Positions 1,175-16,252 of a DNA stretch of 63,566 nucleotides are shown here, one piece after another. Under the pieces are notes generated by a model. It was not told the DNA's origin. It made no database searches and saw nothing but the letters and a program-made list of their open reading frames with translations. The stretch lies in contig JAUHXA010000038.1 of NCBI GenBank assembly GCA_030427245.1, forward strand, positions 1 to 63,566, read 5' to 3'. Made by a program: the position numbers and the translations under genes. This stretch comes from Bacteroidia bacterium. Its GTDB lineage: Bacteria; Bacteroidota; Bacteroidia; Chitinophagales; UBA2359. Numbering within the stretch: the stretch's first letter is position 1; the number at the start of each line of letters is the position of its first letter.

Positions 1175-2392
1175 TTACGAGTCCTTCAATAACTCTGTTT
1201 TCACCACAATTTCGCCATGTAGTGTGCGATGAACAGGACATCTATCTGCAATTTCGAGTAGTCGCTGTTTTTGTTCTTCGTTCAAATCTCCTTCCATTTC
1301 GATACATCGTTCGATATAATCAATCTTGCCTTTGGCATCTTCTATATGCCCTAAATCCTTGGCGTGAACTTTTTGGTGTCGCAAATGTACTGTCACTTCT
1401 TTCAAATCCCATTTTTTACGGCGAGCATACATCTGCAAAGTCATGCTTGTACAAGCTCCCAATCCCGACACCAATAAATCATAAGGTGTTGGGCCAAAAT
1501 CGTTGCCGCCTACTTCAATGGGTTCATCGGCAATGAAACGATGATTTCCAGTCACCACTTCGGTCACGAATCCTACATTCCCCGTCCTCACGACTGCTTG
1601 TTTTTTGGTGGTCAATGGATTTTCTTTGGGGCGAGGTATATATCGTCCTACCCAACAAGCAATCATTTCGCCTGCATAAAAAGAGTCTTCTTTGTCAGAC
1701 ATCAGATGGTCTGCACCGTCTAAGGAAACAAAACTTTTGGGATGCCGAGCCGCTTTGTAAATTTTGGCGGCATTATCTATTGTAACAATCAAATCTTGTG
1801 GCGAATGTAAAACCAACAATGCGGCTTCCAATCCATGAATGACCTCTTCAAAATTTCGGTTTTGGATGTCTTCCAAAAACTGCTTTTTGATGGTAAATGG
1901 GCGACCTCCAATATTTACTTCCGCCACACCTTTTTCTTCGATTTCTTCTTTTTTTGGTGCAATGAGATGCTGTACATGTGCGGGTTCGGATGGAGAACCA
2001 ATCATTACAACTGCCTTTATACTATCTATTTTAGAGTTTGCTAACAAAACGGCTGTTCCTCCAAGAGAATGACCAACTAACAATTCTACTTTACCAAATT
2101 CTTTTGCCATAAAGTCTGCGGCTGCAACCAAGTCTTCTACATTGGACGCAAAATTGGTGTCGGCAAATTCCCCTTCACTTTGCCCCAATCCTGTGAAATC
2201 AAAACGCAGTACACCGATGCCATTTTGGGTCAAGGCTCTGCTGATATTTCTTACTGCCGTCAGATTTTTATTGCAGGTGAAACAGTGTGCAAAGATGGCG
2301 TAGGTGAAAGGATGTTGGTCAGCAGGTAAATCCAACCTACCTGATAATCGTTGTCCTTCGGAGTTGGAAAAGGTTTGTTTTTGGGTTCTCAT
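1175..2392 (-). CDS. Alpha/beta hydrolase fused to OsmC-family protein
   Basis: A 405-residue two-domain fusion. Residues 1-255 are an alpha/beta hydrolase with the nucleophile elbow GHSLGG (Ser109) and a late catalytic His in GADHLM. Residues about 265-400 are an OsmC/Ohr-type domain with the two conserved cysteines in GACTSM and DRCPVH. OsmC/Ohr proteins reduce organic hydroperoxides through such a cysteine pair, and the hydrolase half could release substrates such as ester or lipid peroxides. That link is inference. The fusion is known as an annotated bifunctional protein in bacteria. It lies 91 bp downstream of the GNAT gene on the same strand. Confidence 0.88.
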   Translation of the reverse strand: MRTQKQTFSNSEGQRLSGRLDLPADQHPFTYAIFAHCFTCNKNLTAVRNISRALTQNGIGVLRFDFTGLGQSEGEFADTNFASNVEDLVAAADFMAKEFGKVELLVGHSLGGTAVLLANSKIDSIKAVVMIGSPSEPAHVQHLIAPKKEEIEEKGVAEVNIGGRPFTIKKQFLEDIQNRNFEEVIHGLEAALLVLHSPQDLIVTIDNAAKIYKAARHPKSFVSLDGADHLMSDKEDSFYAGEMIACWVGRYIPRPKENPLTTKKQAVVRTGNVGFVTEVVTGNHRFIADEPIEVGGNDFGPTPYDLLVSGLGACTSMTLQMYARRKKWDLKEVTVHLRHQKVHAKDLGHIEDAKGKIDYIERCIEMEGDLNEEQKQRLLEIADRCPVHRTLHGEIVVKTELLKDS

Positions 2393-2483
2393 TGACTCGT
2401 TCTAATTATTTTAGAAAATTGAAGTAAAAGTAAAGTATTGTTTTTTGGGAAACGGAACTGTCGTTTTGATTACTTAGGGTAAA

Positions 2484-2912
2484 TTAGGCTTTATTTTCAA
2501 GTTTTGCAAAAGCCACCAAATTACCTTCATCACAAGATTCAAAGCCAAGTGATTCGTAAAAACCTCTCGTCTCTGGATTGTCATCAGTTAAAAGCACTTT
2601 TTGTCGAATATGACTGAATTTTGCCAATACAGTCTTCATCAATTTTGTGCCTACTCCTCTCCTTTTATGGCTTTTGAGAACCAGAATGTCTTGTATATAA
2701 GCAATCGTAAAACCGTCCCCAACGACTCTCACCAAACCCACCAATTCTTCCCCTTCCATTGCAGTTAACACATAAAGCGAATTTTTGATGGCATTTTCCA
2801 ATTTTTCGGGGTCATTGGTATAGGCTTTCCATCCTGCGTTGTTGTAGAGCTTCAATAATTGAGATTGGGGAACTTGTTTGGTTTCTTGGTAAGTGATTGG
2901 AGTGGGCATCAT
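2484..2912 (-). CDS. GNAT family N-acetyltransferase
   Basis: A 142-residue single-domain GNAT enzyme. The acetyl-CoA binding motif A is visible as a beta strand (IQDILVL) followed by KSHKRRGVGTKLM at about residues 80-95, matching the family's Q/RxxGxG/A pyrophosphate loop. A C-terminal segment, RGFYESLGFESC, is the usual motif B. The acceptor substrate cannot be told from sequence. It starts 12 bp after the beta-barrel gene and is probably transcribed with it. Confidence 0.85.
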   Translation of the reverse strand: MMPTPITYQETKQVPQSQLLKLYNNAGWKAYTNDPEKLENAIKNSLYVLTAMEGEELVGLVRVVGDGFTIAYIQDILVLKSHKRRGVGTKLMKTVLAKFSHIRQKVLLTDDNPETRGFYESLGFESCDEGNLVAFAKLENKA

Positions 2913-2924
2913 GGGAAGAATTGT

Positions 2925-3698
2925 TTAGAAAAAATACCCAAGTCCAAGTTGAATACTAAGGTTTCTATCTGTATCTTCTCGACTGGGAAAAGTGGTGTTA
3001 TCGTCTTTAGGATAAAGGCTATAGTCATAATGGTTGTTGGTGACATCTGCCAAACATTGACTTACCCGTAAATCTACAATAAACCCTCCTCCTAAATAAT
3101 ACATTGCTCCAAGATTGATTCCAAAATCCAAAGAATTCAGAAAGCCATCTTCCTCAGAACTGCTTGGTAAAATGTTTCTAAAAGAATTATAATCTTGCCA
3201 ATCCAATTTCAAATCGGTCTGCTCACTATCTATAATATTACCAGCACTTGAGGCTTCAACCGTTCTCTTAAAATCTGCTTTTCCTGAAACTAAATATCCA
3301 ATGTTTGGACCGATGTAACCTTTCAAATTGCCCTCTCCAAAAAGGGCTAAAATAGGGAGATTTACGTATGTGTATGTAGAGTTTGCTTCTTGATTGATTT
3401 GGAATTCTACTAGCCCAGTAATAGGATTAATGTCTTCAATACTATATTCTTTCTTTGATACTGTTCCCCTTCTTTCATAGTTCAATTCTATCATCAGGTT
3501 GAACATATCCGAAACGTTGAACTTGTAAAACATGCCACCTTGAAAACCAGCCTTAAACCCTTCCCTTTCTCCTTCTTCTAAGTTGCCATAACTTTCCATT
3601 TTGCTAAGATTCAGACCGCCTTTCGCTCCAAATTGAGCATATACAGTGTTGGCGGAAATCATCAAGATGAAAAATAAGTACAAATTAATTCGATTCAT
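2925..3698 (-). CDS. Outer membrane beta-barrel (PorT-like) protein
   Basis: A 257-residue protein with a signal peptide (about residues 1-21, ending VYAQ) followed by FGAKGGLNLSK, the usual start of Bacteroidota outer-membrane beta-barrel proteins. Alternating hydrophobic strands and a C-terminal aromatic residue (LGLGYFF) agree with insertion into the outer membrane. Such proteins are often annotated porin family or PorT-like. No specific transport role can be claimed. A terminator at 3737-3770 separates it from aconitase, so it likely has its own promoter. Confidence 0.75.
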   Translation of the reverse strand: MNRINLYLFFILMISANTVYAQFGAKGGLNLSKMESYGNLEEGEREGFKAGFQGGMFYKFNVSDMFNLMIELNYERRGTVSKKEYSIEDINPITGLVEFQINQEANSTYTYVNLPILALFGEGNLKGYIGPNIGYLVSGKADFKRTVEASSAGNIIDSEQTDLKLDWQDYNSFRNILPSSSEEDGFLNSLDFGINLGAMYYLGGGFIVDLRVSQCLADVTNNHYDYSLYPKDDNTTFPSREDTDRNLSIQLGLGYFF

Positions 3699-6201: not shown

Positions 6202-6744
6202 TCAATAATAAGGCGAAATCATCAAATATACCAATACGCCTGTAATGGAAACATATAGCCAAAGTGGCATCGTCCATCGAGCGATTTTTCTGTGTGCTTC
6301 AAATTTGCCTGTGAATGCTCTAAGAAAAGTAAATAAAATGATGGGTAGAATAATAGCAGATAAAACAATGTGTGTCAGCAGAATGAAGTAGTAAACGTAT
6401 CTGATAAATCCTTCTCCACCAAATTTTGTCGATTCAGTTAAACTGTGATAAGTGACATAGGAAACTAAAAAAGTAGCAGAAAGCACCAAAGCAGTAACAT
6501 TTGCGGCTTTGTGGGCTTTGATATTCTTGTTTTTGATGAAATACCAACTTAGCAGCAGCAATATGGTAACTGAACCATTTAGAAAAGCATGGAATTTTGG
6601 TAGTATCTTCAAATTGAAGGAGGTACTGATTTCTGGAGGAGAAATATAGAACAAAATCGTCACCAATAGAGGCACTGTAATGGATATGGCGACAATAATT
6701 TTTGCCCATAATTGTTCGTTGGAAAAGAACTTTGATTCATTCAT
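6202..6744 (-). CDS. DUF420 family membrane protein
   Basis: A 180-residue integral membrane protein with about five hydrophobic segments and conserved histidines in [10 protein letters not shown] and [12 protein letters not shown]. It matches the DUF420 family, which in Bacteroidota is usually found beside cytochrome oxidase assembly genes such as SCO. Here it is about 2.7 kb away from that cluster, separated by the plus-strand T9SS gene. I start it at the ATG at 6744; a TTG 21 bases upstream is in frame but overlaps the likely promoter. A role in oxidase assembly is inference from context. Confidence 0.75.
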
Positions 6745-6762
6745 ATCAATTCTATTTTTGCA

Positions 6763-6770
6763 CAAATTTA
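6763..6770 (-). promoter_or_regulatory. Bacteroidota -7 box for the DUF420 gene
   Basis: Reads TAAATTTG on the minus strand, 19 bp upstream of the chosen ATG. It implies a very short 5' leader and supports the ATG start over the upstream TTG, which lies inside the box. Confidence 0.45.
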
Positions 6771-6997: not shown

Positions 6998-9382
6998 ATG
7001 AAACAACACAAACTATTTTACCGATATTTTTTATTCACTATTTGGCTGGGAATGGTCAATTCTTCTTTCTTACAAGCCCAAGAAGTGTATTTTTTTGAGA
7101 ACTTTGAGACGGGAGGGGCAAATTTGTTCTCCTTTCAAGACCGTATGACCCCTCCAGATGGATGGGAAACCCATGTTCTTTCTGGAGATTGGAACAACTA
7201 CTCTAGTGAAAGGTTTTATTTCCATTATATTTTAAATAACATTTACTATCCAGGTTATCCATTTGAAGGAAAATTTGCAATCTACAGTTCCTTAGGAGTT
7301 CCCTTCAATGGGATTCCTGACAGTAGTAGCATAGAGTCTCCTTCATTTGCTTTACCACAAGAAGATGTGCCTATTTTTTTAACATTTGACCATCAATTTA
7401 CATATTACAATGAAAAAGGAAACGGCATTGTTCAGATTTGGAATGGAACAAAATGGAATATCGTATATGAGGTGGGGTTTCAATCGGTAGGCTATAATGA
7501 AGATATCACCTTACGAAAGGTGGCTATTGAACACATAGATATTAGTGATTGGCTTACAGATTTGGATAGTACCAAAATTAGATTAACCTTTTACCATGAA
7601 TCAGGAAAAGATAGAGGTTCCTTATGGCTAATAGACAACTTAAAAGTCTTCACCCCTCCCCCTATAGATATAGGCACAATAACTATACAACATAGTGAAC
7701 TGCCCTATAACTGCTATACCGAAGATGAAACTTTAGAAATAAGCATTCACAACTACGGTTCGCGAGCTATCAACTTTGAAGAATTGCCCTTGAACTTACA
7801 CATTCAAACTACTTTAGAAAACACACAACAAAACTATACCCATACTCTAAATGAAGGTTCATTGGCAATGAATCAGAGCCAAAGTCTTTCAGTTTCAGGC
7901 ATAGACCTCTCGCAAGTAGGAGACTACCATATCCAAGCCTATCCCTACTTAATAGGAGATGAGACGCTAAAAAACGATACTACTCAACTTTATAGAACTA
8001 CTGTTGCCGCCCAACAACTTCCCTTGCCTTTATTGAATTTTGATGATTTTTCTTGGAGTGAAGCTAAGCCATTGGGGTGGTCTGGTGGTGTAAGCCCATG
8101 GTATTTCATGGATGACTTTGGCCACCCAAATGGGCTGAGTTTTTCTGACTATTTAGGGTTCGAATCCCATCCGTTTCTAAAAAGCCCTAAATTCATTGCA
8201 AAAAAATTAATAGAAATTTCTTTTGATTTAGCATTAACGGATATTGGAAATGAACAGGCATTTTGGAACCATCTAGGAGAAGGAAACCATATAGATATTC
8301 GCATTTCTACAGATTGTGGGCAAACTTTTGAAACGATTTACAGCATTACGCCCGATACGCCCATTCTACAAGCAGGGCAAAGAGAACGGTTTCGATTGGA
8401 GGGCTATGGAGAGCAAGAAATAATTTTGGCAGTTTTTGTAGCAGAAGAAAATCCCGTTGATTCTGGTTTGAGCCTATACTTTGATAACATCCAAATCAAA
8501 GAAGTAGAAGCACGAGACATTGGCGTAGAGGTTGCGGAAGGATTTATTGCAGGAAACTATACACCCGATTTAAGCATTCCCGATGATTGGTGGGTTTGTG
8601 GAGACTTCAACTACCCTGTTCAAATCAAATTAATCAATTATGGAGCCTTATTGCAAAATAATTTTGAAGTAGTTGGTACTATCAGCGAAGGATGGAATGA
8701 TGATTTCAGTGTTTTGATTGGTGAACCTTTGTATCCTGGAGAAGAACGAATCATCACTTTAGGAACGACTAACACCTACAATGCGGGGCAATACGATTTA
8801 GAGGCATATATCCGACTGCCCAACGATGACGACCACAGCAATGATACCTTGCGTGCCTTTTTACTGGCACTACCTCCCCAGCCTTCTGCTCAGTTTTTTT
8901 ATGAAAATGAAGGAGAAGGGAAAATACAATTTGCAAAAGCCATCTTTCCGGGCAATCCACAGTATGAATGGGATTTTGGAGATAACAAAGGAAGCAGCAC
9001 TTTTCGTGCCCCTACTTATACTTACGAGGAAAACGGTGCTTATGAGGTGACTTTAACAGTGACAGATGATTGTGGCAGTAATAGTTATACAGAGACTGTT
9101 GTGGTTGATACGGTGGTGGACATAGAAAATATTGACTTAGAACAGGTTCTAAAAATTATCCCGAATCCTTCTAAGGATGGTTTTAAGGTAGGCATTGAAG
9201 GACAAATACTTCCAACTGCTTCTATAAAAATATTTGCTACAAATGGACAATTGGTTTTTCAAGAGGATTATATCCATTTTCAAGAAGCTGAGGTTAAACT
9301 AAACAATTATTTTTCGGGAACTTACTTCCTTCAATTCACCACCCCCATCACAACTACTTCTTTCCAATTCTTCCTGCCATAG
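6998..9382 (+). CDS. Secreted T9SS type A sorting-domain protein with PKD domain
   Basis: A 794-residue secreted protein. It has a signal peptide (about residues 1-28, ending LQAQ) and two MAM/jelly-roll-like segments (about 30-215 and 350-500) that contain a typical FENFETG start and LWLIDNLKVF / LYFDNIQIKE ends. CARDB-like beta domains lie between them. A PKD domain (about 640-710, YEWDFGD and YTYEENGAYEVTLTV) is followed by a C-terminal type A sorting domain starting at IIPNPSKDGF. The sorting domain directs export by T9SS and attachment or release at the cell surface. No catalytic domain is visible. It lies on the opposite strand between two respiratory-gene blocks and may have been inserted there. 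Confidence 0.88.
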   Translation: MKQHKLFYRYFLFTIWLGMVNSSFLQAQEVYFFENFETGGANLFSFQDRMTPPDGWETHVLSGDWNNYSSERFYFHYILNNIYYPGYPFEGKFAIYSSLGVPFNGIPDSSSIESPSFALPQEDVPIFLTFDHQFTYYNEKGNGIVQIWNGTKWNIVYEVGFQSVGYNEDITLRKVAIEHIDISDWLTDLDSTKIRLTFYHESGKDRGSLWLIDNLKVFTPPPIDIGTITIQHSELPYNCYTEDETLEISIHNYGSRAINFEELPLNLHIQTTLENTQQNYTHTLNEGSLAMNQSQSLSVSGIDLSQVGDYHIQAYPYLIGDETLKNDTTQLYRTTVAAQQLPLPLLNFDDFSWSEAKPLGWSGGVSPWYFMDDFGHPNGLSFSDYLGFESHPFLKSPKFIAKKLIEISFDLALTDIGNEQAFWNHLGEGNHIDIRISTDCGQTFETIYSITPDTPILQAGQRERFRLEGYGEQEIILAVFVAEENPVDSGLSLYFDNIQIKEVEARDIGVEVAEGFIAGNYTPDLSIPDDWWVCGDFNYPVQIKLINYGALLQNNFEVVGTISEGWNDDFSVLIGEPLYPGEERIITLGTTNTYNAGQYDLEAYIRLPNDDDHSNDTLRAFLLALPPQPSAQFFYENEGEGKIQFAKAIFPGNPQYEWDFGDNKGSSTFRAPTYTYEENGAYEVTLTVTDDCGSNSYTETVVVDTVVDIENIDLEQVLKIIPNPSKDGFKVGIEGQILPTASIKIFATNGQLVFQEDYIHFQEAEVKLNNYFSGTYFLQFTTPITTTSFQFFLP

Positions 9383-9413: not shown

Positions 9414-10133
9414 TTACTCTTCTTCATTTCCTTTCAACTTCCATTCAATTTCCCGTTTGTGTTTGGTAGGATACTCCAATTGCAGCCAACGAATATCTGA
9501 CATCAACGCTTTAACATCTTGAAGGGTTTCTAAATCATAATAGCCTCTGATAATGCCCTTTCTGCCTACCAACACATATTTTGAAGGATAAATCATAGTT
9601 TTTATATTGCTTGAATCGGACAGTGTAGGAAGGGGTAAATGATAGCCCTCTATGATTTGTCGGTTTACTGTTTCCTGTGTTCCACCCAACAAAAACCACC
9701 TTTCATCATCTATCTTATATTGCTGTACCAATTGTTGAAGCCTTTCAAGCGTGTCTATTGAAGGAACAACCGTATGCACCAATAGCAGCACTTCTTTGTC
9801 TTCTACAAATTCTTCTTGCAGCATCTTATAGTATTCATTCATTGCAGCCAACCTTGCTTCATCGTGACCTGCAAAGAAACCAACAATTAACACTTTATCT
9901 TTTGCATCTTCAGAAGTAAAGATATCCCCTGTTTGGGTAGTAAAAGAAAATTCGGGAAGGGTATGCCAAAGAGTATCGTTCACCAACGCTTTGTTAGGCT
10001 GCTGTGTATCAGAAGATAAAGGAACAAATCGCTTCAATCGTTTCTTAGCAGGCATTTCTTGATTGTCAAAGTAGAAATAAAATGCAAGCGGTATGATAAT
10101 AGCGATTATATAAGCAAGAACCGTTTTATTCAT
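9414..10133 (-). CDS. SCO1/SenC-like thioredoxin-fold protein lacking copper ligands
   Basis: A 239-residue membrane-anchored protein (hydrophobic segment at residues 5-22) with a thioredoxin-like fold of the SCO family. Visible family traits are the strand VLIVGFF, then WFLLGG, then YVLVGRKGIIRGYYD. True SCO proteins bind copper through CxxxC and a distal His and metallate the CuA site. In an ungapped alignment the two cysteines correspond to Asp91 and Leu95, and the His to Pro183, so copper binding by this route is lost. It lies downstream of oxidase subunit IV but beyond a terminator hairpin, and I see no clear promoter of its own. A structural or chaperone role in oxidase assembly is inference. 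Confidence 0.75.
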   Translation of the reverse strand: MNKTVLAYIIAIIIPLAFYFYFDNQEMPAKKRLKRFVPLSSDTQQPNKALVNDTLWHTLPEFSFTTQTGDIFTSEDAKDKVLIVGFFAGHDEARLAAMNEYYKMLQEEFVEDKEVLLLVHTVVPSIDTLERLQQLVQQYKIDDERWFLLGGTQETVNRQIIEGYHLPLPTLSDSSNIKTMIYPSKYVLVGRKGIIRGYYDLETLQDVKALMSDIRWLQLEYPTKHKREIEWKLKGNEEE

Positions 10134-10155
10134 TGGTGTTGTTTTCTAAAAATAC

Positions 10156-10199
10156 AAAACGCTATCATTGGCGTAGGACGACCAAAATGATAGCGTTTT
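10156..10199. terminator. Terminator after the cytochrome oxidase operon
   Basis: A perfect 14-bp stem (10156-10169 with 10186-10199) with a 16-nt loop and A/T-rich stem ends. On the minus strand it ends in a U run and lies about 80 bp after the subunit IV stop, before the SCO-like gene. Confidence 0.7.
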
Positions 10200-10281
10200 A
10201 TTTGTTTGACAAAATTTTGTCGTTTCTTTATAAATTGTTTTGTGAAACTAATCACTGGTCATAAACTAACCATTAATTTTC

Positions 10282-10725
10282 TTAGTGATGTTCTCCATCT
10301 CCATGATCATCTCCTCCGTGATGTCCATGTCCGCCTGTATGCTTTTCAATCTTTGCAGGGTCTTTCCAGCCTTGCTCAATTTGTACATCCCATCTTTGAC
10401 GGTTGTTTTTCCAAGCATCACCTTCCCACAAAAAAGCCACAATGAACCATATTAAGAATATAGTAGGCGTAAGAATGGTTAGAGTCAATGCTCTGAATTC
10501 ATATCGAACGTGCATAAACTCTCCAACGATGAAAAAAGCTTTCAATAAACTCGCTGCAATGAAGAAGCCGTTTAACAAGAATTTTGAAGTTCCAGGCTCT
10601 ACATAATTCATCCACATCAATGCAGCTACTACTTCAACAATCGTGATAACAGATAACCAGATAGTTGCTCGCCAAACCGCACTTACTTGACTTTTGTATT
10701 GTTCGTCGGTAATATGATGTCCCAT
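10282..10725 (-). CDS. Cytochrome c oxidase subunit IV family protein
   Basis: A 147-residue membrane protein with three hydrophobic helices (about residues 19-37, 48-66, 77-100). It matches the prokaryotic cytochrome oxidase subunit IV family, and MHVRYEFRALTLTI is a typical loop. The last 20 residues are a His/Gly/Asp-rich tail with ten histidines. It follows the two subunit III genes on the same strand and closes the oxidase operon before the hairpin at 10156-10199. Subunit IV is small and non-catalytic and stabilises the complex. The His-rich tail is unusual and could bind metal; that is inference. Confidence 0.85.
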   Translation of the reverse strand: MGHHITDEQYKSQVSAVWRATIWLSVITIVEVVAALMWMNYVEPGTSKFLLNGFFIAASLLKAFFIVGEFMHVRYEFRALTLTILTPTIFLIWFIVAFLWEGDAWKNNRQRWDVQIEQGWKDPAKIEKHTGGHGHHGGDDHGDGEHH

Positions 10726-10809: not shown

Positions 10810-11493
10810 CTATAATAAGTAGAAAGCCAAGAATACAAATACCCACACTAAATCTACAAAGTGCCAGTATAAGCCTACTTTCTCTACCATTTCATAGTGT
10901 CCTCTTCTATGAAACACTCCTTGTGAGGCTTGAATCCAAATAATGATGTTCAGTACAACTCCACTAAATACGTGGAAACCATGAAATCCTGTAATCAAGA
11001 AAAACAACATTCCAAATGCCTGAGGACCATAAGGATTCCACCACAAAGTTGTTCCTCCGTGAATCAAGTGCATCCATTCCCATGCCTGACAGCCTAAGAA
11101 AGCAGCTCCTCCTACAATCCCCCAAAACATCCAAAACAATACACCATCTTTATTCATTCGATGTCCTTCTTGAACTGCTCGTACGACAAACACACTACTC
11201 AGAATAAGAATAAAGGTCATCAAACTCACAAATCCCAAAGGTACATCCCAACCTTCTAAAAAAGGAAAGGCATTGAATACCTTATTTGGGTCGGCCCATT
11301 CAGGACTGCTGAATCGAAGTGTTCCGTAAGAAATCAATAAGGCTGAAAAAGTGAATGCATCTGATACTAAGAAGTACCACATCATTAACTTACCATAGCT
11401 CACATTAAAGGGTGATTTTCCTCCCCCCCAATTAGAGCCATCCTCTACTGCTGCATGAGAATCATGTGCTTTGGTTAATGTTTCTGCTGCCAT
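10810..11493 (-). CDS. Cytochrome c oxidase subunit III
   Basis: A 227-residue membrane protein of the haem-copper oxidase subunit III family. Conserved features are KLMMWYFLVSDAFTF near the N-terminus, GCQAWEWMHLI, TGFHGFHVFSGV and the C-terminal YWHFVDLVWVFVFLAFYLL. Subunit III does not carry redox centres; it stabilises the oxidase and its proton uptake. It is the second of two adjacent subunit III-like genes and is the longer of the pair. The gap of 82 bp to the preceding gene suggests one transcript. Confidence 0.9.
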   Translation of the reverse strand: MAAETLTKAHDSHAAVEDGSNWGGGKSPFNVSYGKLMMWYFLVSDAFTFSALLISYGTLRFSSPEWADPNKVFNAFPFLEGWDVPLGFVSLMTFILILSSVFVVRAVQEGHRMNKDGVLFWMFWGIVGGAAFLGCQAWEWMHLIHGGTTLWWNPYGPQAFGMLFFLITGFHGFHVFSGVVLNIIIWIQASQGVFHRRGHYEMVEKVGLYWHFVDLVWVFVFLAFYLL

Positions 11494-11575: not shown

Positions 11576-12175
11576 TTATTGATAGTATTGAAAAAAGAAA
11601 AACAAATACAACCACAAAACACCTACAAAGTGCCAATAAGTTGAAAGTAATTCGATTCCCAAAAATTTCTCAGGTTTCATATCATTAATGAGTTGCTCTG
11701 CTGCATCTGTTTTTTTGAAGGTTTTGAAATAGAAAACAGCCAAAAACAATAATCCAGCTAAAACATGCACTACATGAATTCCTGATATCACATATAAAAA
11801 AGCTCCCGAAGGATCATTTCCTTGTAAAATAATTCCAAAACTTGCCAGTGCTAACCATCCATAATATTGAAGCACAGCAAATCCAATTCCAAGCAAAAAG
11901 GTCAGGCCAACCATTCTTCTATAAAGCAATGAATCCCCCTTTTTAATGGCTCTTTCCCCTACAATCAAAGTTAAACTGCTCAACAGAATAACAATCGTAC
12001 TCGCCCAAAACAAATCGGGCAACTTGTAAGGAGTCCAGTTACCTTGTGCTTGTCGAACAATAAAAGCACTTGTCAAACCTGCAAACATCATAATGATGCT
12101 ACCAAGTCCCAACCAAAGCCCAAATTTTTTGGGATGAATGTTAGGGGTTCTCTTTTTCACAGATATTGTTGACAT
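11576..12175 (-). CDS. Second cytochrome c oxidase subunit III-like protein
   Basis: A 199-residue membrane protein, also of the subunit III family, with five hydrophobic segments and the motifs SGIHVVHVLAGL and STYWHFVGVLWLYLFFFFQYYQ at the C-terminus. It starts KKRTPNIHPKKFGLWLGL, typical of this shorter paralogue in Bacteroidota oxidase operons. I use the ATG at 12175; an earlier in-frame ATG would add six residues. Two distinct subunit III-type genes in tandem are common in this kind of operon, so this is not a recent duplication. Confidence 0.87.
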   Translation of the reverse strand: MSTISVKKRTPNIHPKKFGLWLGLGSIIMMFAGLTSAFIVRQAQGNWTPYKLPDLFWASTIVILLSSLTLIVGERAIKKGDSLLYRRMVGLTFLLGIGFAVLQYYGWLALASFGIILQGNDPSGAFLYVISGIHVVHVLAGLLFLAVFYFKTFKKTDAAEQLINDMKPEKFLGIELLSTYWHFVGVLWLYLFFFFQYYQ

Positions 12176-12261
12176 TTTCAAATACAAATTCAAAAAACAA
12201 ATGCAAATTCAAGAATTTCACATTGTTTTCTTTTTTAAAAATTTCTAATTTTTCTATCTCT

Positions 12262-13173
12262 TTACAAGAAGAACAATCTGTCTAAAACCATAACAGTCTG
12301 CAAAACCGGCAAATAGACAATAGATGCAAACATCAGCTTTAAGGCCGCTTTATCATCACATTCTTTATACAGATTGTATCCATAGTATAAGAACATTCCT
12401 CCTAATAACAGTGCAGTAATCACTGATATCATACTAATCAGGTTGATGGCGTAAGGCGCAAGTGAAACTACTATTAGGGTAACAATATACACCATTATTT
12501 GTACAGCAGTATATTTGTTTTTACCTGCGGAATTCGGCGACAGTTTGTACCCTGCTTTTTCATATTCTTCTGCTCCCAACCATCCAATGGCCCAAAAATG
12601 TGGAAATTGCCACAAAAATTGGATGCTAAATAATATTGAGGCCTCATAAGACCACAAAGAAGTGGCTGCTACCCATCCAATAACAGGTGGCAATGCACCA
12701 GGAATTGCTCCTATAAATACTGCAAATGGAGAAATTCGTTTCATGGGTGTATACACAAAAGCATAACTGAGCAAAGAAATCGCACCAATTAATGCCGCCA
12801 TTGTATTAAACATCAGACCCAATATTAACAAGCCTGCAATTCCGAATATGCCAGCTACTAATAGAGCTTCTACAACACTCATTCTATTGGCTGCAAGTGG
12901 ACGGTTTTTGGTACGTTTCATCAATCTATCATAGTCTTTTTCTATGATTTGATTAATAGCATTTGCAGAACCCGTTACGAGAAATCCCGCTAAACCCAAG
13001 AAAAGTAAGTCAATGAACAAAAAATTTCCTCCAATAGCCAACAAGTAACCAATGATTGCAGAAAAAACAACCGTTAAGTTTAAACGTACTTTTACCAAAA
13101 TCGAATAATCGCTTATTTTAGATTTCAGAAAAGTAATGTATTGGTTATAGGTAGCCTTTAAACTCGTTACCAT
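12262..13173 (-). CDS. ctaB: Protohaem IX farnesyltransferase (haem O synthase)
   Basis: A 303-residue UbiA-type prenyltransferase with about nine membrane helices. The first aspartate-rich motif is visible in NQIIEKDYDRLMKRTKNRPLA (about residues 85-105), and a second conserved loop appears in WLGAEEYEKAGYKL. It farnesylates haem B to haem O, the first step to the haem A used by oxidase subunit I encoded just upstream. No ctaA (haem A synthase) is seen in this window. It lies between coxA and the subunit III genes in one operon. Confidence 0.94.
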   Translation of the reverse strand: MVTSLKATYNQYITFLKSKISDYSILVKVRLNLTVVFSAIIGYLLAIGGNFLFIDLLFLGLAGFLVTGSANAINQIIEKDYDRLMKRTKNRPLAANRMSVVEALLVAGIFGIAGLLILGLMFNTMAALIGAISLLSYAFVYTPMKRISPFAVFIGAIPGALPPVIGWVAATSLWSYEASILFSIQFLWQFPHFWAIGWLGAEEYEKAGYKLSPNSAGKNKYTAVQIMVYIVTLIVVSLAPYAINLISMISVITALLLGGMFLYYGYNLYKECDDKAALKLMFASIVYLPVLQTVMVLDRLFFL

Positions 13174-13283: not shown

Positions 13284-15137
13284 TCAATGCCCCGATTCCG
13301 TTACTTTCAACCCTTGCGCCCTCATTTGATCATCCGATACTGTTTGAGGAATAAACTCATGTCCATCTTTTCCATAGTCATAGGCCCATCGGTGAACGTG
13401 AGGGATAGGTCCTACCCAATTCCCATGACCAGGTTCTATTGGAGAAGTCCACTCCAAAGTAGTAGAATTCCAAGGATTCAAACTTGTCATTTTCTTTCCT
13501 TTTACTGCGCTGTAAAAGAAATTAATTACAAACAAGAACTGAGCAAAGAAAACAATAATTGCAGCTACTGTAATGAATACTTTCAAATCTCCATATATAT
13601 CAAATGTTTGAAAGTATTCTAAGCTATAATAACGTCGTGGCACACCTGTCATTCCTTGATAGTGCATCGGCCAGAAAATACAATAACTTCCTACAAATGT
13701 CACCCAAAAGTGAACATATCCCAAAGTATTGTTCATCATGCGACCATTGAAGAGTTTTGGGAACCAGTGATACACCCCTGCCAATAATCCAAATCCGCCC
13801 GCTAGCCCCATCACAATGTGAAAGTGAGCCGTCACAAAATAAGTATCGTGCAAAGTAATATCTAAAGCAGAGTTTCCTAAGAAAATACCCGTCAAGCCTC
13901 CTGAGATAAATAGCGACACAAAACCAATCGCAAACAACATGGCTGGAGTAAAATTAATATTCCCCCGCCAAATCGTGCCTATCCAGTTAAATACCTTAAT
14001 CGCAGAAGGTACTGCAATTAAAAGTGTAAACAATACAAAAATAGAAGCGACAAATGGATTCAATCCTGAAATGAACATGTGATGCGCCCATACTAAGAAG
14101 GCCAAAACTGTAATGGCTAAGATGGATAGAACCATCGCCTTATATCCGAAAATAGGTTTTTTGGAATTAGTAGCCAATATTTCGGAAACCATTCCCATCG
14201 CAGGTAGAATAATAATATATACTTCTGGGTGTCCTAAGAACCAGAATAAATGCTGGTACAAAATAGGGCTACCTCCTTGTAGTACTTCGCCCGCTACGTT
14301 GGTCAAAGGTGCTCCTGCAATGTAGATGTCAGACAAGTAAAAACTTGTTCCCATTCCTCTATCAAACAATAATAGAATCATAGAAGACAACAATACAGGA
14401 AAGGATAAAACCCCCAAGATTGCAGTAAAGAAGAATGCCCATATTGTCAAAGGTAAACGCATCATCGTCATACCTTTTGTACGCATATTTAATACAGTGG
14501 TAATATAGTTCAAACCTCCCAATAAGGAAGAAATAATGAATAAACTCATGCTCAAAATCCAATAAGTCATCCCTGCTCCTGAACCTGGATCGGCTTGAGG
14601 CAAGGCACTCAATGGAGGATAAGCTGTCCAACCACCACCAAAAGGTCCTGTTTCGATAAACAAGGAAATGAACATTACCAATCCTGCGCTAAAAAAGAAC
14701 CAATAGGAAAGCATATTCAAAAATGGTGATGCCATATCTCTTGCACCACATTGAAGTGGAATCAAAAGATTACTAAATGTACCACTTAGTCCTGCTGTCA
14801 ATACAAAGAATACCATTACTGTTCCATGAATGGTAACCAAAGAATAGTAGCCTGATGGTGTCAAAATTCCTCCTTCAGCCCATTTTCCCAACAAGGTTTC
14901 CATAATAGGAAAAGTCTCGCCAGGCCAAGCCAATTGCAAACGGAATAGCACTGACATTAATACACCTAAAAAAGACCAAAATATACCTGTGATAAGAAAT
15001 TGCTTAGCAATCATCTTATGGTCTTGGCTAAAGATGTATTTTGAAATGAAGGATTCCTTATGATGATGCTCATCGTGATGATCATCATGACCATGCACAA
15101 CAATTTCGTGATGAAGTTTGATATCGGTAACAGCCAT
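13284..15137 (-). CDS. coxA: Cytochrome c oxidase subunit I
   Basis: A 617-residue catalytic subunit of an A-type haem-copper oxidase with 12 or more membrane helices. Visible key motifs are TIHGTVMVFF (low-spin haem ligand), WFLGHPEVYI (CuB His with cross-linked Tyr and the D-channel Glu of A1-type enzymes), AHHMF (CuB His pair), and HDTYFVTAHFHIV (high-spin and low-spin haem ligands). The N-terminus carries a His/Asp-rich stretch with nine His in residues 9-27. The start is the ATG at 15137; an upstream ATG would add 14 residues. It reduces O2 to water and pumps protons. Confidence 0.96.
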   Translation of the reverse strand: MAVTDIKLHHEIVVHGHDDHHDEHHHKESFISKYIFSQDHKMIAKQFLITGIFWSFLGVLMSVLFRLQLAWPGETFPIMETLLGKWAEGGILTPSGYYSLVTIHGTVMVFFVLTAGLSGTFSNLLIPLQCGARDMASPFLNMLSYWFFFSAGLVMFISLFIETGPFGGGWTAYPPLSALPQADPGSGAGMTYWILSMSLFIISSLLGGLNYITTVLNMRTKGMTMMRLPLTIWAFFFTAILGVLSFPVLLSSMILLLFDRGMGTSFYLSDIYIAGAPLTNVAGEVLQGGSPILYQHLFWFLGHPEVYIIILPAMGMVSEILATNSKKPIFGYKAMVLSILAITVLAFLVWAHHMFISGLNPFVASIFVLFTLLIAVPSAIKVFNWIGTIWRGNINFTPAMLFAIGFVSLFISGGLTGIFLGNSALDITLHDTYFVTAHFHIVMGLAGGFGLLAGVYHWFPKLFNGRMMNNTLGYVHFWVTFVGSYCIFWPMHYQGMTGVPRRYYSLEYFQTFDIYGDLKVFITVAAIIVFFAQFLFVINFFYSAVKGKKMTSLNPWNSTTLEWTSPIEPGHGNWVGPIPHVHRWAYDYGKDGHEFIPQTVSDDQMRAQGLKVTESGH

Positions 15138-15205
15138 AAGGGACTCGTTATTTATGTTTTTGAGAAAAAATATTCTCAAATATTATTAATAAAATTTATT
15201 TCTTC

Positions 15206-16252
15206 TTAAAGACTTGAAATGTCTTTTTCTTTCTCAATTGGCATTTCTTCCTCTGCCATATTATCTGCTCCCCCTTCCAACTTATCCAAACCTAATTGTT
15301 TGTAAGTAGGTTGTTGTTCCTTGAGCCATGCTTCGTACTCCTCTTCGGTTTCTACAATTACCACTTTTCTCATATTGTAGTGAGCTGCCCCACAAAGTTC
15401 CGCACAAGCCAATTCGTAATTGAAGTCAGGACCGAACGTTTTACGCATTTCTGCGGTAGTCTTTGTTGGAGTAAACCAAAACTGCGTTGGAATCCCTGGC
15501 ACACAGTCCATTTTCACTCTAAAGTGTGGCAAATAAAAACTATGTAAAACGTCTAAAGCATTCAATTTAAATACAACAGGTTTGCCAATAGGAAGGTGAA
15601 TTTCATTTGCAACAAAATCATCTTTATTAGCAGCATCTGTCCAATCTTGTCCTACTGCATTGTCAGGGCCAATCAATCGAATATTTTTAACCCCCAACTC
15701 ATTGTCTTCTCCAGAATATCTTATCGTCCACAAAAACTGTTGAGCAGTAGCTTCTACAACAATCGCTTCTGTTGGAGCAGGACCTGTGATCTTGAACCAA
15801 TTTCTGATGCCTTCATATACCAACAAAATCATGACAATTGCAGGAATCACTGTCCAAATCAACTCTAATTTGTTGTTGTGTGAATAATAGTAAGATTTCC
15901 TACCTTTTTCTTTTTTGTATTTAAAAGTAAAATAGAACAAGGCAATGTGGGTAATCACAAATACAGGGACGGTCACTACCAAAGTCCACTGGAACATGCT
16001 TCTCAGCCAAGCACCATGCTCAGAGGAGGGGAAAGGTAGGTAGGCTTCTTTAAACCAATAAGCAGAATAGAATGAGCCTATCAAACCTACTATTAAGAAT
16101 GCCATAAATAAGAAAGCATGTACTTTATTCGATGCCTCCATTGCTTTTTCCTCATCCTTCAAAATAGCTATAGACTCGCTTGCCTTTGATATTTGAAAGA
16201 GGATGATAAGCACCAGAGCTATTGTAATAATACCTAAAACTGTTGCAGACAT
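15206..16252 (-). CDS. coxB: Cytochrome c oxidase subunit II with CuA site
   Basis: A 348-residue subunit with an N-terminal membrane helix (residues 4-20), two more helices at about 47-68 and 88-110, and a periplasmic cupredoxin domain. The CuA ligands are clear: His in DVLHSFYLP, then Cys283 (with Glu285), Cys287, His291 and Met294 in CAELCGAAHYNM. It receives electrons from cytochrome c or directly from ACIII and passes them to subunit I. No C-terminal cytochrome c domain is present, so this is an aa3- rather than caa3-type subunit. It lies 183 bp after actF, joining the ACIII and oxidase gene blocks. Confidence 0.95.
   Translation of the reverse strand: MSATVLGIITIALVLIILFQISKASESIAILKDEEKAMEASNKVHAFLFMAFLIVGLIGSFYSAYWFKEAYLPFPSSEHGAWLRSMFQWTLVVTVPVFVITHIALFYFTFKYKKEKGRKSYYYSHNNKLELIWTVIPAIVMILLVYEGIRNWFKITGPAPTEAIVVEATAQQFLWTIRYSGEDNELGVKNIRLIGPDNAVGQDWTDAANKDDFVANEIHLPIGKPVVFKLNALDVLHSFYLPHFRVKMDCVPGIPTQFWFTPTKTTAEMRKTFGPDFNYELACAELCGAAHYNMRKVVIVETEEEYEAWLKEQQPTYKQLGLDKLEGGADNMAEEEMPIEKEKDISSL

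Follow-up and report, generated by a model that had tools for sequence, protein, structure and literature searches.

The SCO gene and its oxidase cluster

The window, by which we mean the whole stretch of DNA analysed (63,566 nucleotides), corresponds to contig C121 of a genome of 7.58 Mb in 187 contigs (G000; completeness 100, contamination 0.43). It carries an aa3-type oxidase cluster with the gene order COX2-COX1-CtaB-COX3-COX3-COX4, and the SCO gene that is the subject of this report adjoins COX4. The features of this region are as follows:

6202..6765, minus strand: DUF420 gene (CtaM-type assembly factor), the neighbour of SCO in relatives (Pfam and the relatives' gene order)
6998..9382, plus strand: gene inserted between SCO and DUF420, encoding a 794-aa protein with PKD and Por secretion C-terminal domains (domain search)
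9414..10133, minus strand: ligand-free SCO1/SenC-family protein, 239 aa, with a predicted N-terminal membrane anchor (open reading frame, PF02630, AlphaFold model, orthologue profile)
9588..9590, minus strand: Tyr182 codon, at the column of the distal copper-ligand His (alignments with orthologues)
9849..9863, minus strand: former CxxxC motif, now D91-E-A-R-L95 (alignments with orthologues)
10065..10127, minus strand: predicted N-terminal transmembrane helix, residues 3-23 (structure model and alignment)
10140..10200, minus strand: hairpin resembling a terminator, with a T-rich stretch after it, in the interval from COX4 to the SCO start (direct folding)
10282..10725, minus strand: COX4_pro, oxidase subunit IV (Pfam)
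10810..11493, minus strand: COX3, second copy (Pfam)
11576..12193, minus strand: COX3, first copy (Pfam)
12262..13173, minus strand: UbiA prenyltransferase (Pfam), which we take to be CtaB-type from its position and family
13284..15179, minus strand: COX1 (CoxA; Pfam and His motifs)
15206..16252, minus strand: COX2 (CoxB) with an intact CuA motif, CAELCGAAHYNM (Pfam and motif)

Further genes on the minus strand of the window presumably form an alternative complex III set. The SCO gene itself is a single intact open reading frame with an ATG start. Its product, hereafter the window SCO, has a predicted helix at residues 3-23, which may serve as the membrane anchor named in the original prediction, with the domain that follows in the periplasm, as is usual for SCO proteins.

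The placement at the end of an oxidase operon holds for the gene order, whereas the hairpin separates SCO from COX4 and the inserted gene separates it from DUF420; CtaM is given as a DUF420 protein in PMC9145763. The hairpin (-21.8 kcal/mol, z -6.2, with none of 200 shuffled sequences reaching that stability) sits immediately upstream of the SCO start codon and may cut transcription of SCO from the oxidase operon. It was found by direct folding and is absent from the output of a consensus terminator scan. Among 15 family loci examined, hairpins of similar strength occur in G015 and G012, both of which keep the copper ligands, and the hairpin is thus not specific to ligand loss. The insertion, which runs in the direction opposite to SCO, is found in G000 alone among the loci with both genes in the stretch; in the relatives with both genes, SCO and DUF420 lie within about 400 bases of each other.

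Family membership and predicted fold

The window SCO matches the SCO1-SenC model PF02630 with an E value of 4.2e-9 and 36.9 bits (cut-off 22.8), and it scores 190.6 bits against a profile of 12 orthologues, all of them intact SCOs, with both ligand-free proteins described here excluded. An AlphaFold2 model based on an alignment with 13 relatives has a thioredoxin-like body (pLDDT 83.8, pTM 0.76); 12 of these relatives keep the ligands, so the predicted SCO fold leans on intact proteins. Residues 170-176, which precede the column of the distal His, have a pLDDT below 50.

In a structural comparison with VIA-align, the best match to this model was 4hde, a SCO1/SenC protein (Z 20.6, rmsd 2.1, 166 residues aligned), followed by BsSco 1xzo (Z 19.2, rmsd 2.4, 164 aligned). 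All of the top 14 rows are titled SCO except 3me7 and 3me8 (aq_2194 of Aquifex; Z 17.1 and 16.2), and apart from aq_2194 the non-SCO families begin at Z 14.9. A sequence search of the PDB up to E 0.01 returned three distinct sequences, namely 4hde and the B. subtilis Sco entries 1xzo and 1on4. The SCO fold signatures that had been read from the sequence are therefore borne out by PF02630, the orthologue profile and the predicted model. Assignment to a non-SCO thioredoxin family, which would have counted against that reading, is rejected, as PF00578 gives 16.8 bits, below its cut-off of 26, and SCO chains come first in the structural comparison. An NCBIfam scan of six SCO proteins gave nothing near a cut-off.

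Loss of the copper-site residues

Alignments with orthologues confirmed that Asp91 and Leu95 occupy the two CxxxC cysteine columns. The distal His had been matched to Pro183, which is off by one column: the window reads TMIYPSKYVLV where relatives have DFIHTEKFVLV, so that Tyr182 aligns with the His, while the Pro183 column holds Thr, Ser or Asp in relatives. Both features of a copper-binding SCO, the CxxxC motif and the distal His, are hence absent. The protein contains no cysteine at all, and its five histidines (57, 90, 120, 165 and 225) all lie off the ligand columns. An alternative Cys or His at the copper site, which would have weakened the original prediction, is rejected on this alignment. 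A protein without cysteine can be neither a normal copper carrier nor a thiol reductase. Judged from its sequence, the window SCO does not qualify as a conventional copper chaperone.

The shell of the site is altered as well, with D85, F88, P92, I94, P96, S119, D123 and F180 of the intact form all lost. The window SCO keeps 7 of 18 conserved positions in the copper-site segments, compared with 25 of 35 (71%) elsewhere. Among the 15 orthologues with intact ligands, 16-18 of 18-20 site positions and 30-35 of 35-41 non-site positions are retained, the lowest outside the site being G005 (30 of 41, 73%). With segments that we drew ourselves, the clustering of changes around the copper site has p 0.037 in G000 and 0.086 in G002, the second ligand-free case described below. 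Without the three ligand columns these values become 0.117 and 0.228, so that concentration beyond the ligands themselves is a tendency and is not proven.

A second ligand-free SCO in the same family

Of 20 family genomes, 19 have a SCO match and 17 have a SCO of the cox type. COX4 adjoins the cox-type gene in 15 of these 17; in the stretch scanned, G005 has DUF420 only and G004 has neither neighbour. A tree built without the ligand columns places the 17 cox-type SCOs on one side of a branch (90/80) from 28 other SCOs, although in a smaller tree four rows from other families fall among the cox-type rows, which leaves the exact limits of the group unsure. The window SCO is 29-37% identical to seven intact orthologues; five of these seven share 52-60% identity with one another, and where they were paired with G007 or G001 the values are 36-45%.

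The ligands C, C and H are kept in 15 of the 17 cox-type SCOs and are all absent in two, the window SCO and that of G002. A search of this locus in relatives for the same ligand-free form, proposed as a check, found one with different replacements, N/S/N in place of D/L/Y:

1501-2163 of locus L024 (G002:C238), minus strand: ligand-free SCO of G002, at the same locus as the window SCO

The gene order around it is DUF420-SCO-COX4-COX3, and the SCO gene directly abuts DUF420. The G002 protein lacks the ligands and is not free of cysteine; the cysteine-free case is the window SCO. It scores 15.6 bits with PF02630 (cut-off 22.8) and 17.6 bits with PF00578, both below cut-off, and it is absent from the matches of a PF02630 search at E<=0.001. 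Against the profile of 12 intact orthologues it reaches 156.3 bits. Its model (pLDDT 82.8) has SCO chains first, with 4hde at Z 19.0 (rmsd 2.3, 160 aligned), and a putative disulfide isomerase, 2ls5, already at rank 9 (Z 15.9). Its filing as a SCO therefore rests on the orthologue profile, the gene order and the model. Annotation relying on the Pfam model would miss this protein, and since that standard model misses one of the two ligand-free SCOs, more may exist.

In a wider survey, 228 distinct SCO sequences comprised 222 with C, C, H, four with C, C, Y (one of them, L093, a doubtful alignment), the window SCO with D, L, Y and the G002 protein with N, S, N; this sample of loci held no third ligand-free SCO. 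The survey scored 275 loci, of which 271 had a match, and L005-L008, four places of weak PF02630 similarity in the window's own genome, yielded no match. Rows that were nearly identical were merged, and loci that duplicated places already covered or carried other oxidase genes (L100-L121), as well as housekeeping loci (L122-L179), were omitted. Most loci entered the survey through their similarity to ligand-free or cox-locus queries; two match lists gave 59 and 60 further places from among the matches listed, and one similarity search across 395 genomes had no match at threshold in 216, which the survey excludes. Because loci were partly picked from match lists, the counts describe a sample and not prevalence. 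A milder ligand change is seen in L078, L320 and L346, which keep CxxxC and carry Tyr at the distal His (FIYSDKL); L078 comes from a Mucilaginibacter record.

One ligand loss or two

The two ligand-free proteins could descend from a SCO that lost its ligands once and was acquired by G000 and G002 through gene transfer or left in them by the differential loss of an older duplicate, a history compatible with any of the functional readings below and one that we consider rather improbable. The SCO tree without ligand columns joins them with support 99/93, an LG+G4 tree of the cox-type rows with four rows from other families groups them at 83/79, and they have in common S119V and the loss of Gly201. 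However, they are the two longest cox-type branches, the setting in which long-branch attraction arises, and each is placed elsewhere once the other is removed. Their identity is 24%, and each cox-type stretch scanned showed one SCO match only. Placement of the G002 SCO with those of G017-G019 is not rejected (p-AU 0.178 with G000 included, 0.124 without).

Other genes of these genomes also speak against a single origin. The concatenated operon genes reject G000 and G002 as sisters (p-AU 0.0148). In rpoB, rpoC and gyrB, G002 falls with G017 and G019, which belong to one genus (100/100), and the pairing of G000 with G002 is again rejected (p-AU 0.0253). The SCOs of G017 and G019 have intact ligands; as the housekeeping genes put G002 with a genus that keeps them, two separate losses are favoured over one. 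We read the grouping in the SCO tree as long-branch attraction, a reading that is not proven.

Copper demand and other SCO copies

A lost demand for copper is rejected as the background of these changes. COX2 of G000 has the intact CuA motif, with the upstream segment LDVLHSFYLPH, and the COX1 His motifs are intact too. The corresponding COX2 segments in G002 are CAELCGVSHFNM and LDVLHNFYLPH, and the motif C-x-E-x-C-x3-H-x2-M is kept in both genomes. One other COX1-family gene was found in the window's genome, its type recognised from sequence:

1459-3579 of locus L121 (G000:C89), plus strand: fused CcoN-CcoO-type cbb3 oxidase gene, 706 aa

The search for a second SCO with intact ligands in the window's genome, proposed as a check, turned up three, on contigs C78, C35 and C74, all with C, C, H. 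The C35 type is present in 11 family genomes in the SCO tree, and the C78 gene adjoins cytochrome c. The C74 gene clusters with genes for a multicopper-oxidase/cytochrome c protein, which we call NirK-like, and for an FGE-sulfatase-domain protein. In G002 there are two further ligand-complete SCOs (C66 and C33). Among strong PF02630 matches, a SCO gene beside an FGE-sulfatase-domain gene occurs in these two genomes only (L117, G000:C74; L207, G002:C33).

Beyond the cox-type copy, matches to PF02630 at E<1e-15 number three in G000, two in G002 and none or one in the other 15 genomes, a threshold chosen after the match list had been seen and with several genomes incomplete. Under random ranking, the chance of finding both ligand-free genomes in the top two places is 1 in 136, a figure that carries the same post hoc threshold. 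At Pfam's own cut-off, other genomes too have several extra matches (three in G007). Copper supply by PCuAC was considered and rejected, with no PF04314 match in any of the 20 family genomes and a match in 3 of 14 control genomes.

Possible functions of the ligand-free SCO

The window SCO is a real, unusual variant within a known family, and for it a new function as scaffold or chaperone, as originally proposed, is possible. The reading that we prefer, and hold at about even, is that an oxidase-cluster SCO orthologue lost its copper site and has been retained as a copper-free pseudo-SCO scaffold. A paralogous SCO would now load CuA, which would have freed the operon copy from that task. The anchored thioredoxin-like body would remain under selection and might act as a scaffold or holdase by docking on apo-CoxB or the CoxB assembly complex. 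Such docking would involve neither copper transfer nor thiol exchange, as the plant protein HCC2 functions without ligands. Both ligand-free SCOs keep the predicted anchor, the D-T-x-W-H-T segment and the C-terminal L-E-Y-P.

Less probable, although a serious competitor, is that the gene is under relaxed constraint, no longer needed and turning into a pseudogene: on this view the ligands were lost once paralogues could load CuA, the sequence now drifts, and the frame is intact only for the time being. The long branches, the unshared replacements and the upstream hairpin also fit a copy that is slowly losing its role. Among the 17 cox-type SCOs, the two ligand-free proteins have the longest terminal branches (1.87 in G002, 1.34 in G000), compared with 0.44-0.59 for the nearby intact SCOs of G004, G009, G013 and G016, 0.98 for G001 and 1.07 for G005, the highest intact value; the operon genes of G000, G002, G013 and G001 have similar branches (0.35-0.38). 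Conserved positions outside the copper site have been lost too (10 of 35 in G000, 14 of 35 in G002), and both genomes have additional SCO copies. The hairpin between COX4 and SCO points the same way, as does the gene that parts SCO from DUF420, in G000 only.

Against decay, both genomes have an open frame, of 236-243 codons counted from stop to stop, and the share of conserved non-site positions kept in G000 (71%) is close to that of the intact G005 (73%). The anchor, as predicted, and the two conserved segments named above are retained in both proteins, both are modelled with a SCO fold, though with the lean on intact relatives in the alignment, and in G002 the SCO gene still lies directly against DUF420.

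A new metal or redox site is improbable. It would consist of His90-Asp91-Glu92 and Tyr182, with hard N/O ligands (for iron, zinc or manganese, for example) replacing the soft Cys and His. Asp91 and Tyr182 lie exactly on ligand columns, His90 and Glu92 flank Asp91, and the three CxxxC-keeping SCOs L078, L320 and L346 likewise carry Tyr in the His column; however, G002 has K-N-P-N and Asn at these places, and the residue set is thus not shared. An error of sequencing, assembly, binning or alignment is very unlikely: the genome is split into 187 contigs, but its completeness is 100 and its contamination 0.43, 11 of 18 conserved copper-site positions are changed with the frame still open, the alignment is good on both sides of each motif, and a second genome has the same kind of loss.

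Returning to the copper-free scaffold, its general form would be that the oxidase clusters of bacteria may include a SCO devoid of cysteine as a pure CoxB assembly scaffold while a distinct SCO paralogue loads copper, a split that would have arisen at least twice in one family. We advance this wider proposal tentatively and think it somewhat unlikely. The question that the window SCO addresses is whether SCO proteins have a role beyond thiol chemistry and the binding of copper. Should the window SCO prove to help aa3 assembly, neither thiol exchange nor binding at the known site could account for that role, and a cysteine-free SCO beside an oxidase with intact copper motifs therefore offers a clean test of a non-thiol role.

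Comparison with known SCO systems

The SCO1/SenC/PrrC family, including BsSco (YpmQ), human SCO1 and Bradyrhizobium ScoI, resembles the window SCO in the predicted single transmembrane anchor, the thioredoxin-like fold, the neighbourhood of oxidase genes and the profile match, whereas the window SCO lacks CxxxC, the distal His and any Cys. Among open-access papers, judged by title and the beginning of the abstract, none dealt with a bacterial oxidase operon that carries a ligand-free SCO; surveys by Banci and colleagues (2007, 2011) may include sequences of this kind.

The working analogue is plant HCC2 (Arabidopsis At4g39740), which likewise lacks CxxxC and His and coexists with a ligand-complete SCO (PMC3971200, PMC6696091). 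The combination of a ligand-free and a ligand-complete SCO in one organism is found in G000 as well. According to PMC3971200, HCC2 keeps five other cysteines and is dispensable for COX activity in Arabidopsis; the window SCO has no cysteine. HCC2 is mitochondrial, the window SCO is encoded in a bacterial oxidase cluster, and the two are likened by description, not by sequence; descent of the window SCO would be separate, because its orthologues are intact bacterial SCOs. HCC2 is reported to interact with the metallochaperone module (PMC6696091) and gives partial rescue of a yeast sco2 sod1 double mutant exposed to oxidative stress with paraquat (PMC6307045). The review PMC6696091 calls the activity of the ligand-free HCC2 “very surprising” and asks what its other function is. 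As HCC2 retains other cysteines, a link to copper is not fully excludable there (PMC6307045).

Thermus thermophilus Sco1 resembles the window SCO as a SCO without copper delivery of its own in vitro (PMC6696091); it reduces the CoxB cysteines, with pCuAC as the copper donor, whereas the window SCO has no thiols and, unlike in Thermus, a PCuAC match is lacking in all 20 family genomes. Within the family itself, intact cox-locus SCOs, such as those of G016, G013 and G019, occupy the same site beside COX4 and DUF420 with the same architecture and keep C, C and H. Two ligand-free cases in one family, together with intact orthologues in sister genomes, thus provide natural controls.
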